Shown: positions 39,405 to 56,158 of the stretch, piece after piece
How positions within the stretch are numbered: the stretch's first letter is position 1
How the letters are laid out: every line of letters begins with the position of its first letter
Assembly: GCA_002356515.1 (NCBI GenBank)
Contig: AP017605.1
Coordinates: 3,605,001 to 3,669,000 of the forward strand
DNA from: Mesorhizobium loti
GTDB lineage: Bacteria; Pseudomonadota; Alphaproteobacteria; Rhizobiales; Rhizobiaceae
Length of the DNA: 64,000 nucleotides
Direction of reading: 5' to 3'
Program-made: the position numbers and the translations under genes
Notes under the pieces: generated by a model
Database searches by the model: none
What the model was told of the DNA's origin: nothing
What the model saw: only the letters and a program-made list of their open reading frames with translations

Positions 39405-42400
39405 ATGAACATCCAGCCCAAACACACCGAGCCGCTGATCCTGTCGGGCCGCGACGTGACCGCCGTGCTTGGGCCGACCAACACCGGCAAGACCCATCTC
39501 GCCATCGAGCGCATGGTGGCGCATGAGACCGGCATCATCGGCCTGCCGCTCCGGTTGCTGGCCCGGGAGGTCTACACCCGCGTCTGCGAAAAGGTCGGTG
39601 CCCACAAGGTCGCGCTGATCACCGGCGAGGAGAAGATCCAGCCGCCAGGCGCCAAATATTCGGTCTGCACCGTCGAAGCCATGCCGCGCGAGACCGACGC
39701 TGCCTTCGTCGCCATCGACGAGGTGCAGCTCGCCGGCGACCTCGAGCGCGGCCACATCTTCACCGACCGCATCCTGCATCTGCGCGGCCGCCAGGAAACG
39801 CTGCTGTTGGGTGCAGCCACCATGCACGGCATCCTGCAGCGCCTGCTGAAGGGCGTCTCGGTGGTGACGCGGCCGCGGCTGTCGCACTTGGCCTATGCCG
39901 GTTCGAAGAAACTGACCCGCCTGCCGCGGCGCACCGCGATCGTCGCCTTCTCCGCCGACGAGGTATATGCCATCGCCGAGCTGATCCGCCGCCAGCAGGG
40001 CGGCGCCGCCGTCGTGCTCGGGGCGCTCTCGCCGCGCACCCGCAACGCCCAGGTGGCGCTGTTCCAGTCGGGCGATGTCGACTATCTCGTCGCCACCGAC
40101 GCCATCGGCATGGGCCTCAACCTCGATCTCGACCATGTCGCCTTCGCCCAGAACCGCAAATTCGACGGCTACCAGTATCGCAATCTGACGGCGGCCGAGC
40201 TTGGCCAGATCGCCGGCCGCGCCGGCCGGCATCTGCGCGACGGCACCTTCGGCGTCACCGGTCAGGTCGACCCGCTTGACGAAGAGCTGGTCAAGAAGAT
40301 CGAGAGCCATGATTTCGATCCGGTGAAGGTGCTGCAGTGGCGCACCGCGCATTTCGACTTCGCCAGTCTCGATGCGCTGAAGCGCTCGATCGAGACCAAC
40401 GCACCGGTCGAGGGCCTGACGCGCGCGCTGCCGGCGGTCGACGCACAGGCGCTCGAATATCTCTCCCGCGACGGCGACATCCGCGCGCTCGCCACCGATG
40501 CCAAGCGCGTGGCGCTGCTGTGGGAAGCTTGTGCTCTGCCTGACTACAGGAAGATCGCGCCGGCCCAGCATGCCGACCTCATCGCCTCGATCTACATGGA
40601 CCTTGCCCGCCACGGCCATGTCGACGAAAACTACATGGCCGAGCAGGTGCGCCGCGCCGACACCACCGAGGGCGACATCGACACGCTGTCGCACCGCATC
40701 GCCCAGATCCGCACCTGGACATTCGTGTCGAACCGGCCCGGCTGGCTGGCCGATCAGGCACACTGGCAGGAAAAGACGCGCGAAATCGAAGACAGATTGT
40801 CGGATGCGCTGCATGAGCGGTTGACGAAACGCTTCGTAGACCGCAGGACTTCCGTCCTCATGCGGCGCCTTAGAGAAAATACCATGCCTGAAGCCGAAAT
40901 TAGTCCTACCGGAACCGTCCTTGTCGAAGGCCATCATGTCGGCGAGTTGCAAGGGTTCCGCTTCACCGCCGACCAGACCGCCGGCGGCGAAGACGCCAAG
41001 GCCGTGCGAACGGCCGCGCAAAAGGCGCTGGCCGCCGAATTCGAGGCGCGTGCCGAACGTTTTGGCGCCTGCGCCAACGGCGACTTGGCGCTCGGCTCGG
41101 ACGGCACGCTGCGCTGGATCGGCGCGCCGATCGGCACGCTGGTCTCCGGCGAAGACGCGCTGAAGCCGCGCCTGGTGTTGCTGGCCGACGAACAACTGAC
41201 CGGCCCGGCGCGCGACAAGGTCGCCGCGCGCGCCGAACGGTTCGTCAATTTCCAGATCGAGTCGCTGCTGAAGCCGCTGGTCGACCTGAAGAACGCCGAC
41301 CAGATTTCCGGTATTGGCCGGGGCATCGCCTTCCAGCTGGTCGAGAATTTCGGCCTCATCAACCGCCGCGACATCGCCGAGGAGATGAAGTCGCTCGACC
41401 AGGAAGGCCGCGCGGCACTGCGCCGGCTCGGCGTGCGCTTCGGCGCCTACCATGTCTTCGTGCCGGCGCTGATCAAGCCGGCGCCCGCCGGGCTGGTGAC
41501 CTTGCTGTGGGCGCTGAAGAACGACGGCAAGGACAAGCCTGGTTTCGGCGACGTGGTCCACGCGCTGGCGTCGGGCCGCACCTCGGTGGTGATCGATCCG
41601 GCCTTCGACAAGGCCTTCTACAAGCTTGCCGGCTACCGCAATCTCGGCCGCCGCGCCGTGCGCATCGACATATTGGAACGGCTGGCGGACCTCATCCGTC
41701 CGGCGACCAACTGGAAGCCCGGCCTCGGCCAGCGTCCGGACGGCGCCTATGATGGCCACTCCTTCATGGTGACGCCGCCGATGATGTCGATCCTCGGCGC
41801 CACCGCCGACGACATGGAAGAGATCCTGAAAGGTCTCGGCTACCGCGCCGAGCCGAAGCCGGCGACCGAAGTCAAGGCGCGGCTCGAGGCGCAGGACACT
41901 GCCGCGCGCGAAGCCGCTGCAGCAAAGCTTGCGGCGGAAGAAGCCGCACGCGCCGAGCAGGCCAAGGCGGCGGAAGCCGCGGCAACGGATGCAGCCGCCG
42001 AAGCGGCGGTCGAGGGTTCGGAGCCGGCTGTTGCCGAGACCGCCATCGAAGCGCCGGCCGAAGCCATCGCGGAAGTGGCGGCGGAGCCCGTCGCGGAGGA
42101 GCAACCGGAAACTCCGGCCGAAGCCGTGGAAGAGCCCGCTACAGAGGCCGCTGTTGCTGAAGTGGCTGCTGAACCTGCTGCCGAGCCAGAGGCGGAAGCC
42201 ATTGCTGACGTCAGTGTCGCTGAGGGCGCCGACGCCCTAACCTCCCCCTCGATGGGGGAGGTCGCTGCGCGAAGCGACGCGGGTGGGGGTGATGGCGCCA
42301 ACGATTCAGGCAGTGCTGACGGTACCGCCGCTCCCCCCACCCCGGCGCTGCGCGCCGACCCTCCCCACGAGGGGGAGGGTCAAGTGGCCGAAGCGCCCAA

Positions 42401-42857
42401 ACCGATCCTGCTGTGGCGCCAGGGTCGTTTCGAACAGCGCCCCCGTCATCACGAAGGCCGCAACAACCGCCAGCGCAACGGACAAGCGCGCGGCCGAAAC
42501 AATGCACCCACCGATGCCGCCGGCGCACAGGCCACGGCTGCTCCCGGAGAACGTCCCGAGGGACGACGCGATGGCGCCGGCAAGCCGCGCTTCGACCGTT
42601 CGAAGTTCAAGCCCAAGCCGCAAGGTGAAGGCGAACAGCGCCGCGACGGCCGCCCGCAAGGCGAACGTCCCGAGCGCCGCGAAGGCCGTCCCGACTGGAA
42701 GGGTGGCCGGCCCGAGGGCAAGGGTGGTCCCGATCGCGGCAAGGGCGGCGCAAAGCCGGCCTTCCAATCAAAGCCGCGCGAGGAACGTCCAGTGCGCTTC
42801 GACCCGGATTCGCCCTTCGCCAAGCTCGCCGCCTTGCGCGACCAGCTGAAGAAGTAG
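39405..42857 (+). CDS. SUV3-like ATP-dependent RNA helicase with long low-complexity C-terminus
   Basis: An 1150-residue helicase like eukaryotic mitochondrial SUV3. Walker A is GPTNTGKTH (residues 23-31), the DEVQ form of motif II is at about 105-108, and motif VI is QIAGRAGRH at about 268-275. SUV3-like C-terminal regions follow to about residue 830. The rest is Ala/Glu-rich, then a block read from a repeat element (about 945-993), then an Arg/Gly/Pro-rich basic tail ending in DSPFAKLAALRDQLKK. The tail resembles RNA-binding disordered regions. No strong ribosome site is visible at the ATG. It probably acts in RNA turnover; the S4 gene follows directly. Confidence 0.9.
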   Translation: MNIQPKHTEPLILSGRDVTAVLGPTNTGKTHLAIERMVAHETGIIGLPLRLLAREVYTRVCEKVGAHKVALITGEEKIQPPGAKYSVCTVEAMPRETDAAFVAIDEVQLAGDLERGHIFTDRILHLRGRQETLLLGAATMHGILQRLLKGVSVVTRPRLSHLAYAGSKKLTRLPRRTAIVAFSADEVYAIAELIRRQQGGAAVVLGALSPRTRNAQVALFQSGDVDYLVATDAIGMGLNLDLDHVAFAQNRKFDGYQYRNLTAAELGQIAGRAGRHLRDGTFGVTGQVDPLDEELVKKIESHDFDPVKVLQWRTAHFDFASLDALKRSIETNAPVEGLTRALPAVDAQALEYLSRDGDIRALATDAKRVALLWEACALPDYRKIAPAQHADLIASIYMDLARHGHVDENYMAEQVRRADTTEGDIDTLSHRIAQIRTWTFVSNRPGWLADQAHWQEKTREIEDRLSDALHERLTKRFVDRRTSVLMRRLRENTMPEAEISPTGTVLVEGHHVGELQGFRFTADQTAGGEDAKAVRTAAQKALAAEFEARAERFGACANGDLALGSDGTLRWIGAPIGTLVSGEDALKPRLVLLADEQLTGPARDKVAARAERFVNFQIESLLKPLVDLKNADQISGIGRGIAFQLVENFGLINRRDIAEEMKSLDQEGRAALRRLGVRFGAYHVFVPALIKPAPAGLVTLLWALKNDGKDKPGFGDVVHALASGRTSVVIDPAFDKAFYKLAGYRNLGRRAVRIDILERLADLIRPATNWKPGLGQRPDGAYDGHSFMVTPPMMSILGATADDMEEILKGLGYRAEPKPATEVKARLEAQDTAAREAAAAKLAAEEAARAEQAKAAEAAATDAAAEAAVEGSEPAVAETAIEAPAEAIAEVAAEPVAEEQPETPAEAVEEPATEAAVAEVAAEPAAEPEAEAIADVSVAEGADALTSPSMGEVAARSDAGGGDGANDSGSADGTAAPPTPALRADPPHEGEGQVAEAPKPILLWRQGRFEQRPRHHEGRNNRQRNGQARGRNNAPTDAAGAQATAAPGERPEGRRDGAGKPRFDRSKFKPKPQGEGEQRRDGRPQGERPERREGRPDWKGGRPEGKGGPDRGKGGAKPAFQSKPREERPVRFDPDSPFAKLAALRDQLKK
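42239..42382. repeat. Palindromic repeat element inserted in-frame in helicase gene
   Basis: About 144 bases made of two hairpins, ACCTCCCC/GGGGGAGGT at the left and ACCCTCCCC/GGGGGAGGGT at the right, with GGGTGGGGGTGA and CCCCCACCCCG pairing in between. The same pattern occurs at 54759-54903. It is read in-frame, coding for a Gly/Ser/Pro-rich insert (TSPSMGEVAARSDAGGG ... PPTPALRADPPHEGEG). The length is close to a multiple of three and no stop arises. Confidence 0.85.
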
Positions 42858-52370: not shown

Positions 52371-53147
52371 TTATGTCGGCTTCCGGGCAATATCTCGTGA
52401 TACCGCATTCCCGGCACTCGCACCGACATAGCGCTGGAACACCTCCGGACCAGCCCCGGCAAAGAAATCTTCCGCGCTGCCGGTGGCAGCGACTGCACCA
52501 TTGTCCAGAAACACCACATTCTGGCCGATCCGGTGGGCATCCTGAGGCTGATGCGTGACGAACAGCACTGTCATGCCGCGTTCGGCATGCAAGCCGGCAA
52601 CCAGATCGAGCATGTCGTCGCGCAAGGCCGGCCCCAGCGAAGCAAAGGGTTCGTCGAGCAGAAGCACCGGGCGATCGCGCACCAGGACGCGCGCCAACGC
52701 AACACGCTGGCGCTCGCCGCCGGAGAGTTCATGCGGCAAGCGTCTTTCCTTGCCGCCAAGCCCTGTGCGTTCCAACGCCTCGGCGATGGCGATTCGATCG
52801 GCCTCGGTCAGCCGCAGCGCTGGCGAGCGGCCGAGCCCGACATTCTGCTCGACGGAAAGATGGGCAAAAAGATTGTTTTCCTGGAACACCATCGACACCG
52901 GCCGCGCGGCTGGCGGCGCGGCGCCGACATCGGCCCCGCCGATCAGCACGCGGCCGGACTGCGGTGTCTCGAAGCCAGCGATCAGGTTGAGCAACGTCGA
53001 CTTTCCCGAACCGCTCGGCCCCATAATGGCGGTGATTTCCGCCGCGGCGAACCCGACATCGAAAGCAATCAGCGCCTCGCCATAGCTGAACGAGACCTTG
53101 TCCAGCCGTACCGGAACGCCCTTCCTGCCCACCGCCCCGTCAGACAT
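52371..53147 (-). CDS. thiQ: Thiamine ABC transporter ATP-binding protein
   Basis: A 258-residue ATPase: Walker [10 protein letters not shown], signature LSGGERQR and Walker [13 protein letters not shown]. The ATG at 53147 overlaps the thiP stop by eight bases. A long upstream extension of the frame lies inside thiP and is not coding. Last gene of thiBPQ, controlled by the riboswitch ahead of thiB. Confidence 0.92.
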
Positions 53148-54858
53148 TACGGACCTTTTCCCTTCCCAGCCAATCCGCGGCCAGTACCAAAGCGAGGCAG
53201 ACCAGGCCAAGCAACAGCGCCAGGCCGGCGGCGTCCTCGGTGCGGTAGCTGCCCATGCGCGAAAGCAGAAGGTAAGGCAAGGTCTGCACGGAATCACTGC
53301 CGAACAGCGCAATGACGCCGAGATCGCCAAGCGACAGCGCCATGGCGAAAGCAAAAGCGGTGGCGAGCGGCCGCCGCAATGACGGCCAGTCCACCAGCCG
53401 CAGCCTCGCCCAGCCGGAAATGCCGAGCTGCGCGCAGAGCCGTTCGTGACGCTCGCTCGCCGCGTCATAGGCGGGGCGGACGGCGCGCAGCGCGAACGGC
53501 ATCGCCATAACAGCATTGACGGTGGCGACCATGACCGGGGCGATGGCAAAGACATCGCCGGCATGGCGCAGCAACAGGAACCAGCCGGCGCCGATGACGA
53601 TCGGCGGCACGACCAGGACAAAACCGGCGCCGGTGTCGGTTGCATGTTCGAGCACTGTCCTTGGACCGGCGCGGCGGTTCAACGCCAGTGCCCGTCGCGC
53701 CATGGTCAGGGCCAGCGACAGCATCACCGAAAGCAGCGCCGACAGGAAGGCCAGCACCGCACTGGTCAGTGTAACCTGCCGAACAGTGGCTTCGCCGGCG
53801 AGCCGGCCGAGATCGGCCCCTAACCCGGCGAGCACCGTGGCCGCCATGGGTCCGACAACGAACAGCAGCGCCAGCACGATAAGCGCGGCGTTCAGTGTGG
53901 TCTCGGTCCCGTTGACGGAGAGATAGCGGCGCGGCGCGACCGGCAGGTTGGTGTCGCCGACGACATTGGCGCCAAGCCGCGTCAGCGCCAGCACCACGAC
54001 GAAGGTGAGCGCGATCTGCAGCGTCGTCAGGGCGACAGCCCGCGCGGGATCGAAATCGAAGCGCAGCGCCTGGTAAATGCCGACCTCCAGCGTCGTCGCG
54101 GCCGGCCCACCGCCCAGCGTCAAAACGATGGTGAAGGATGTGATGCAGAGCATGAAGACCAGACCGGCGACGCCGGGTAAGGCACCGCGCAGCGTCGGCC
54201 ATTCGATCAGCCGGAACGCCGGCCGCGCCCCCATGCCGAGCTGGCTCGCCAGCCGCCATTGGTCGGCGGGAATGGTCTGCAGCGCCTCAAGGAACAGCCG
54301 CGTCGCCAACGGCAGGTTGAAGAAGACGTGGGCGACGAGAATGCCGGGCAGGCCATAGATGCCTGGCCAGCCCTGACCGCCGACGGCGCTGAACAGCCCG
54401 GCGAAATAGCCGGCGCGGCCGTAAAGCGCGAGAATGCCGAGCGCCGCGACGATCGCCGGCAGCGCCAGCGGCACGGCGAAGAGCTGCAGGATGAAGGCGC
54501 GGCCGAAAAAACGCGGATGCCGCGACAGCGCGCGTGCGACGAACAGAGCTGGGATAACCGAGAGCAGGGTCGAAAGGGCTGCCTGCCAGAGCGTGAAGCG
54601 CACGACACGTAGGAGATAGGGATCGAAAGCTGCCCAGGCGCCCGAAAGGTCATGAGCGCCTTCGACAAGCAGCCCGGCAAACGCGCCGCCGATCAGCAGT
54701 GTGATGGCGGCGAGCGCGATGATGCCGGCACTGATGCGGGAGTCAGACGCGCGCCTTCCACCCTCCCCTTTGTGGGGAGGGTCGGAACGCGGATGCCGCG
54801 AAGCGGTGTCCGCGAGCCGGGGTGGGGGTGAGGCAGTGCTCAGCGTCGCAGCCCCCAC
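53140..54858 (-). CDS. thiP: Thiamine ABC transporter permease
   Basis: A fused double-unit permease of about 572 residues with some twelve helices in two halves, as usual for ThiP. The only in-frame start visible is GTG at 54858, inside a palindromic repeat that also supplies a GGAG site. About the first 33 residues ([19 protein letters not shown]) would thus be repeat-derived. The true membrane part begins at [17 protein letters not shown]. The end overlaps thiQ. A non-standard start nearer the first helix cannot be excluded. Confidence 0.88.
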
Positions 54859-54903
54859 CCCGCTCCGCTTCGCGGATCGACCCTCCCCACAAGGGGGAGG
54901 GTG
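54759..54903. repeat. Palindromic repeat element at thiB-thiP junction
   Basis: About 145 bases. Left hairpin CCCTCCCC/GGGGAGGG, right hairpin CCCTCCCC-ACAA-GGGGGAGGG, with GGGGTGGGGGTG and CCCCCACCCCG in between. It has the same layout and many identical blocks as the element at 42239-42382. It lies 11 bases after the thiB stop and spans the 5' end of thiP, contributing its start codon. Confidence 0.85.
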
Positions 54904-54913
54904 AGAAGCGCAC

Positions 54914-55912: not shown

Positions 55913-55965
55913 CGGCGCCTCCTTCGTTCGAATTGAAAGGAATTGAGGCGTCGGACTGGCCGAAA

Positions 55966-56065
55966 CGTCTAATCCCTCCGCCGGTACAAACCGGATCAGG
56001 TTCAGCGGGTTGGCGAGATTGCCTCTCAGCCGGTCCGCGAAGATCGCGTCCGGCACCCCGTTAGA
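55966..56065 (-). ncRNA. TPP riboswitch (THI element)
   Basis: On the minus strand, from about 56065 down to 55966, the sequence carries the conserved parts of a THI box: CGGGGTGCC near the 5' end, GGCTGAGAGG, and ACCCGCTGAACCTGATC followed by GGAGGGATTAGAC. It is in the 5' leader of thiB and should switch off thiBPQ when thiamine pyrophosphate is abundant. Confidence 0.95.
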
Positions 56066-56158
56066 GCGTTTCGACACATAGGCCCGGCCGAGGAACCGCG
56101 CAAGTGGCAGTTTGCCGGCCTTCCGTTTCCGCTGCCGGGCTGGTACAGGCCACCAGAT

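Follow-up and report, generated by a model that had tools for sequence, protein, structure and literature searches.

A palindromic repeat element lies in frame within the gene for a SUV3-like helicase of Mesorhizobium loti, and related elements occur both dispersed through the genome and in frame in two further genes. We put at about 0.83 the probability that this is a non-autonomous, REPIN-like palindromic repeat, inserted in an ancestor within Mesorhizobium into an Ala/Glu-rich linker of the helicase, where it now forms a segment of protein rich in Gly, Ser, Pro, and Ala. In the course of events proposed here, a transposase supplied in trans would move the element as a hairpin, and an insertion would survive if its length were a multiple of three, its frame open, and its site a linker or surface loop. 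Recombination would spread or remove the insert allele between species, and in-frame deletions between the hairpins would erode the element. On our reading, a loop or linker can tolerate the element, which is RPE-like, thanks to its in-frame position and its scarcity of stop codons.

Architecture of the helicase element and of its second copy

The window is a stretch of 64,000 nucleotides from contig AP017605.1. Its relevant features are as follows.

39405-42857, plus strand: SUV3-like helicase gene, host of the insert (ORF of 1150 aa; Pfam DEXQc_Suv3 1.1e-26, Helicase_C 9.9e-10)
42240-42380, plus strand: palindromic element, 141 nt, in frame at residues 946-992, peptide TSPSMGEVAARSDAGGGDGANDSGSADGTAAPPTPALRADPPHEGEG
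42240-42262, plus strand: left terminal hairpin, 9-bp stem, of the 21-nt CCTCCCC..GGGGAGG type
42261-42278, plus strand: left inner stem, GTCGCT...AGCGAC
42281-42290, plus strand: left-half block GGGTGGGGGT
42335-42344, plus strand: right-half inverted partner block CCCCACCCCG
42358-42380, plus strand: right terminal hairpin, ACCCTCCCC..GGGGAGGGT
53143-54858, minus strand: permease ORF, BPD_transp_1
54760-54902, no strand assigned: second family copy, 143 nt, overlapping the start of the minus-strand permease ORF
55956-56070, minus strand: TPP riboswitch (Rfam RF00059, 68.6 bits), near the BPD_transp_1 permease ORF

The helicase element, bounded by ACC...GGT, is built from two opposed halves, both about 49 nt long and both containing a terminal hairpin, an inner stem, and a block resembling GGGTGGGGG. 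Read through, it has the order ACCTCCCCCTCGATGGGGGAGGT, inner stem, GGGTGGGGGT, spacer, CCCCCCACCCCG, second inner stem, ACCCTCCCCACGAGGGGGAGGGT. The original prediction named two hairpins of the CCTCCCC/GGGGAGG type together with the blocks GGGTGGGGG and CCCCCACCCC, and all of these are present. The pattern CCTCCCC-N(3-8)-GGGGAGG is found four times in the window, at 42241-42261 and 42360-42378 in the helicase copy and at 54762-54780 and 54882-54900, and not once in 100 shuffles. The folding energy is -102.7 kcal/mol for 42236-42385 (z -7.3 against shuffles) and -122.5 kcal/mol for 54757-54907 (z -11.6). A block-by-block match had been claimed between the helicase copy and 54760-54902; this holds for the architecture, but the inner stems and spacers differ. 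In the window, searched against Rfam at the gathering threshold, the TPP riboswitch is the sole match, and the palindromic family has none. The copy at 54760-54902 may be located between two genes that belong to an operon for thiamine transport.

The insert amounts to exactly 47 codons, residues 946-992, and preserves the reading frame, as had been predicted for an insert at about residues 945-993. Judging by this open frame, it is probably translated. The frame is open in 25 of 25 full alleles, a count obtained by scoring translations, in which out-of-frame copies would go unseen. An AlphaFold2 model built with 15 alignment rows has a mean pLDDT of 41.2 across the whole helicase, and the low score of the linker is for that reason uninformative.

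A dispersed family with members in frame in three genes

The genome around the window spans 8.45 Mb in four contigs. The perfect hairpin pattern occurs at 42 places in it, while a control pattern occurs at none, and 32 of the 42 hairpins form 16 pairs at a spacing of 79-120 nt (counted by eye). We built a covariance model, R1, from 29 halves aligned from 20 fetched stretches, with the halves in the window left out. At E<=0.001 it finds at least 53 halves, a lower bound because 150 of 6199 candidates were scored, and all four halves of the window are among them in spite of their exclusion from the model. Further genomic copies, for which the original prediction had proposed a search, therefore exist in number. 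The halves fall into 33 clusters, of which 18 are two opposed halves, two are pairs in the reverse arrangement, and 13 are single. All 53 lie on the largest contig and none on the other three, among the 150 of 6199 candidates scored. Across the order, at least 39 of 101 genomes (this one included) contain one or more R1 matches under stricter filters, with 59 candidates scored per genome. It might be argued that a GC-rich, Ala/Pro-rich linker merely happens to form hairpins, and by eye the linker is indeed GC-rich and of low complexity; the four hairpins against none in shuffles, the at least 53 halves genome-wide, and the out-of-sample recovery of the window's own halves make such an accident exceedingly improbable.

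A REPIN is a miniature mobile unit made of two REPs in inverted orientation. The 18 of 33 clusters with two opposed halves resemble this arrangement (REPIN paper PMC3116915), but, unlike in REPINs, no RAYT-like gene flanked by the family was found with model R1 at the loci of the genome's two Y1_Tnp matches. These two genes were considered as sources of the family's transposase and rejected, since neither is flanked by the family (their 3.3-kb loci have no R1 match).

Stop codons are few in any frame of these elements. In 16 copies from the genome, related to one another and not independent, 80 of 96 frames are open. Dinucleotide shuffles give 64.9 open frames (sd 3.7), and not one of 300 reaches 80. 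Copy length is divisible by three in only eight of the 16.

At least four elements lie in frame in three genes supported by Pfam: one in the SUV3-like helicase, one in UvrD, and two in FtsY. The UvrD of this genome (889 aa; Pfam UvrD-helicase 1e-85, UvrD_C 5e-67) carries the insert TSPSMGEVAPRSGAGGGGSAGASHPSPSLRDDPPHQGEG between DEYQDTN and GDDDQSIY, a position between motifs II and III. PDB entry 3lfu (DNA helicase II), the UvrD of E. coli, aligns with it in two pieces, with residues 238-241 (4) standing opposite residues 277-329 (53), and the comparison at this site is clean, unlike that at the helicase linker. Position in a disordered segment had been offered as the reason why the helicase insert was tolerated; disorder alone is not a sufficient explanation, because the same family is in frame in UvrD between motifs II and III. 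In FtsY (SRP54 5e-71), both copies lie in the proline-rich N-terminal region. The genic copies use one frame throughout, giving T-S-P-x-x-G-E-V and x-P-P-x-x-G-E-G, and annotators of rhizobial proteins should bear in mind a possible repeat origin for peptides such as SPSMGEV or PPHEGEG.

A codon test on 31 clusters, those outside the window, flagged UvrD alone and missed both FtsY copies; in none of the other 28 clusters is there an open frame accompanied on both sides by coding-like codons. Because the test missed the FtsY copies, four genic elements in 33 clusters is a lower bound. Further candidates for host genes were rejected: the long ORFs at L010 and on both strands at L015, where the element is N-terminal to the known domain, and the long ORF at L024, which has no Pfam match.

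The loop of UvrD differs among genomes, as recorded here:

L007:1671-4337 and loci L138-L195: UvrD loops with differing in-frame palindromic types by genome

A UvrD query matched all 41 genomes of the genus, and 30 loci were fetched, with 29 loops readable. By eye, one of the 29 (the present genome) belongs to the family of the helicase element, eight have a second palindromic type (SSPLEGEV...PPLKGEG), six a third (ISPLEGEMSGR...), and the other 14 a sequence of a fourth kind (SAEGRKPDRAS). The third type also occurs at two other stretches of the present genome, L017 and L020; for the second type, the strain of locus L126 is the one other place where the core was encountered. The fourth sequence was considered as a repeat family and is not counted as a dispersed element, because exact copies are few in 13 genomes (one copy in five, two in one, none in seven); the present genome has none. 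Beyond the genus, the loop is short in 35 of 71 genomes and long in 36. Of 28 loops read from other genera, 24 are long, in a sample made up of best matches, and terminal hairpins, of several kinds, could be seen by eye in at least eight. A single loop in a conserved repair helicase has thus received different palindromic elements, in frame, on more than one occasion. In the UvrD loop at L162 (genome G001), a G run comes after a very long C run; a palindrome may have been misassembled here.

FtsY varies in a comparable way: it matched in 41 genomes, and the 30 loci read (two of them cut at the start) contain 0 to 3 family copies each. In its N-terminal region (L014:2150-4177, L250-L279), the recurring peptides PHPPAGTFSPYxDGEK and PSPRPSRGEGKGEG look like further in-frame repeats.

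Comparison with described repeats

The original prediction likened the element to the RPE of Rickettsia, which passages of two papers describe as palindromic repeats of about 150 bp in several families, many of them in frame in unrelated genes (PMC10969869, PMC3733652). The likeness is borne out in these respects: the Mesorhizobium element is palindromic, is dispersed in many copies, and stands in frame in unrelated genes (helicase, UvrD, FtsY). The hosts differ, and the likeness is one of description. The reference list of PMC10969869 includes Ogata 2000 and 2002, with a 2002 title that calls protein-coding palindromes a unique feature of Rickettsia, and a passage of this 2024 review treats such protein evolution outside Rickettsia as merely conceivable. 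Our observations extend a phenomenon of the RPE type, best known from Rickettsia, to free-living bacteria.

Di Nocera et al. 2013 (PMC3733652) report hairpin REPs, often dimers, within the ORFs of several species; many of the host genes listed serve replication or repair, and UvrD/REP helicase and RNA helicases are named. The present elements agree with those passages in being hairpin repeats inside ORFs and in having helicase hosts, UvrD among them; the word Mesorhizobium is absent from the main text of that paper. In that paper, CGTC REPs are recognized by a tag, CGTC (or TGTC, CCTC), together with A-T pairing at stem positions one and two (PMC3733652). By eye, neither that tag nor a GTAG tag next to the stem is found in the 29 aligned halves; the stem starts with ACC and is preceded by TCG, read from the centre.

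Brucella belongs to the same order as Mesorhizobium. Its Bru-RS, dispersed palindromic repeats of 103-105 nt that are classed as intergenic in a table of PMC2267715, are, by description, a like case of a dispersed palindromic repeat in an alphaproteobacterium, but the Mesorhizobium family differs in standing also in frame inside genes. A literature search of open-licence papers found none on in-frame palindromic elements in Mesorhizobium. The kind of element is already known; the family, its hosts, the recurrent use of a shared site in UvrD, and the way in which the ends are conserved like DNA appear to be new.

Distribution and evolution of the helicase insert

In a DNA search with the helicase, 40 of the 41 genomes of the genus gave a match. 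Scanning named genomes yielded 178 confirmed relatives, of which the best 80 were kept; the tree of the helicase core has 80 rows, namely our own sequence and 79 loci, with L134 left out. The insert is full in 25 rows, partial in four, reduced to a scar in three, and absent from 45; one row (L126) has another element, and two end before the site. For 15 of the 80 rows the state was assigned manually from the peptides; for the others it follows from similarity to two pieces of peptide that had been typed in. Over the 77 scorable rows, our own included, the insert is patchy, with a minimum of 15 changes on the tree, or 16 if the other three rows are taken as absent. Occurrence of the same residues in distant genera had been named as an observation that would refute the original prediction, and none of the three rows named as other genera (two Pseudaminobacter, one Corticibacterium), a small sample, has them. 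The insert is present in L060 and L072, two rows that bear no genus name and are placed inside the Mesorhizobium rows.

Near relatives may differ in state: L068 has the insert and L118 does not, and their sequence further out is nearly identical. The clean gap anticipated in orthologues, on the other hand, appears in none of eight helicase pairs, as absent alleles hold other Ala/Glu-rich codons at this place. This counts against the insertion reading: the helicase pairs compared offer no clean empty site, and the absent alleles have other linker sequence instead. The flanks of present and absent alleles are too diverged for a target duplication, such as a MITE would leave, to show. From the differences between near relatives and the other linker sequence of absent alleles, we infer one old insertion, probably followed by exchange of linker alleles through recombination, with losses. 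Erosion is illustrated by L096, which compared with its relative L121 has lost in frame the stretch between the hairpins and has one hairpin left; among the scars, L073 is similar to L096, and L097 is different. Here one family stands in frame in three core genes of a large, culturable genus, and named strains include full, partial, scarred, and absent alleles, so that one can test directly between two views of such inserts, as tolerated noise and as raw material for proteins.

Silent divergence between the two main clades, in 24 of the 25 full alleles (L082, which the start pattern did not catch, was left out), is 0.135 in the 5' block, 0.144 in the 3' block, and 0.448 in the helicase core, with 0.965 in the spacer, a value that may be too high because the middle of the insert is gappy. 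Silent sites of the ends thus change about three times more slowly than those of the core. The corresponding dN/dS values, for which similarity scoring to two typed peptide pieces lowers dN, are 0.54 in the 5' block, 0.78 in the 3' block, 0.40 in the spacer, and 0.08 in the core. With such low silent divergence at dN/dS values of 0.54 and 0.78, the ends are alike as DNA more than as peptide. In the left hairpin, two stem pairs have changed on both sides, a result reached by 19 of 500 shuffles and counted on 23 alleles, ten of them distinct (L082 and L084 left out). An insert that is merely tolerated would not be expected to show slow silent change at its ends, and some further cause is required. 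Gene conversion, selection on structure, or template switching inside the hairpin may supply it.

Were the insert taken into use, its mRNA hairpins or its peptide would now serve the helicase and be kept by selection, in line with the low silent divergence of the ends (0.135 and 0.144, against 0.448 in the core and 0.965 in the spacer) and with the both-sided changes in the left hairpin. Those changes, however, are two cells of ten distinct rows, the dN/dS of the end blocks suggests a peptide under little constraint, scars and partial copies persist, and 45 of 77 scorable sequences, near relatives of carriers among them, do without the insert. We judge such use to be decidedly unlikely.

Gene conversion would add to insertion and not replace it: other genomic copies would overwrite the ends of the helicase copy, and the unmatched spacer would drift. 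Conserved ends with a free spacer are what short tracts between dispersed copies should produce, and full alleles are patchy on the helicase tree. Overwriting by common copies should, however, have changed the hairpin type, and the helicase copy keeps the 21-nt type (6 of 42 hairpins) rather than the dominant CTTGT type (23 of 42), which makes conversion very unlikely in our estimation. The dominant type occurs in none of helicase, UvrD, and FtsY. In an association noticed after the fact, four of the six hairpins of the 21-nt type are genic, against three of the other 36; such a pattern is compatible with old insertions that persist in genes, with turnover among the intergenic copies.

A broader proposal builds on an insertion of a REPIN-like repeat, the reading we prefer. 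Genes for helicases that unwind hairpins may be recurrent, long-term homes for hairpin elements in the family around Mesorhizobium, with the loop between motifs II and III of UvrD as a landing pad where palindromic families replace each other in frame. Genic elements would then evolve as DNA, with slow ends and a free spacer, and would retain their function as mobile or structured DNA even as part of a translated frame. We consider this unlikely; if true, it could tie the fate of the elements to the helicases that process them.

The same helicase linker has apparently received other elements independently. The outgroup row L126 carries an in-frame element at a different point of the linker, and L134, likewise from an outgroup strain, has a single half inside the helicase (37 bits); these inserts are apparently separate events involving related elements. 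The genome of L126 contains at least 59 halves (150 candidates scored). At 15 loci read there, GGGAGGG is found in 15 of 18 classed cores, a count to which the right half of the insert itself contributes (28 segments unclassed), whereas in the genome of the window GGGTGGG is found in 35 of 39 (47 unclassed). Another family element lies downstream of the helicase of the L126 strain, at L126:8405-8490.
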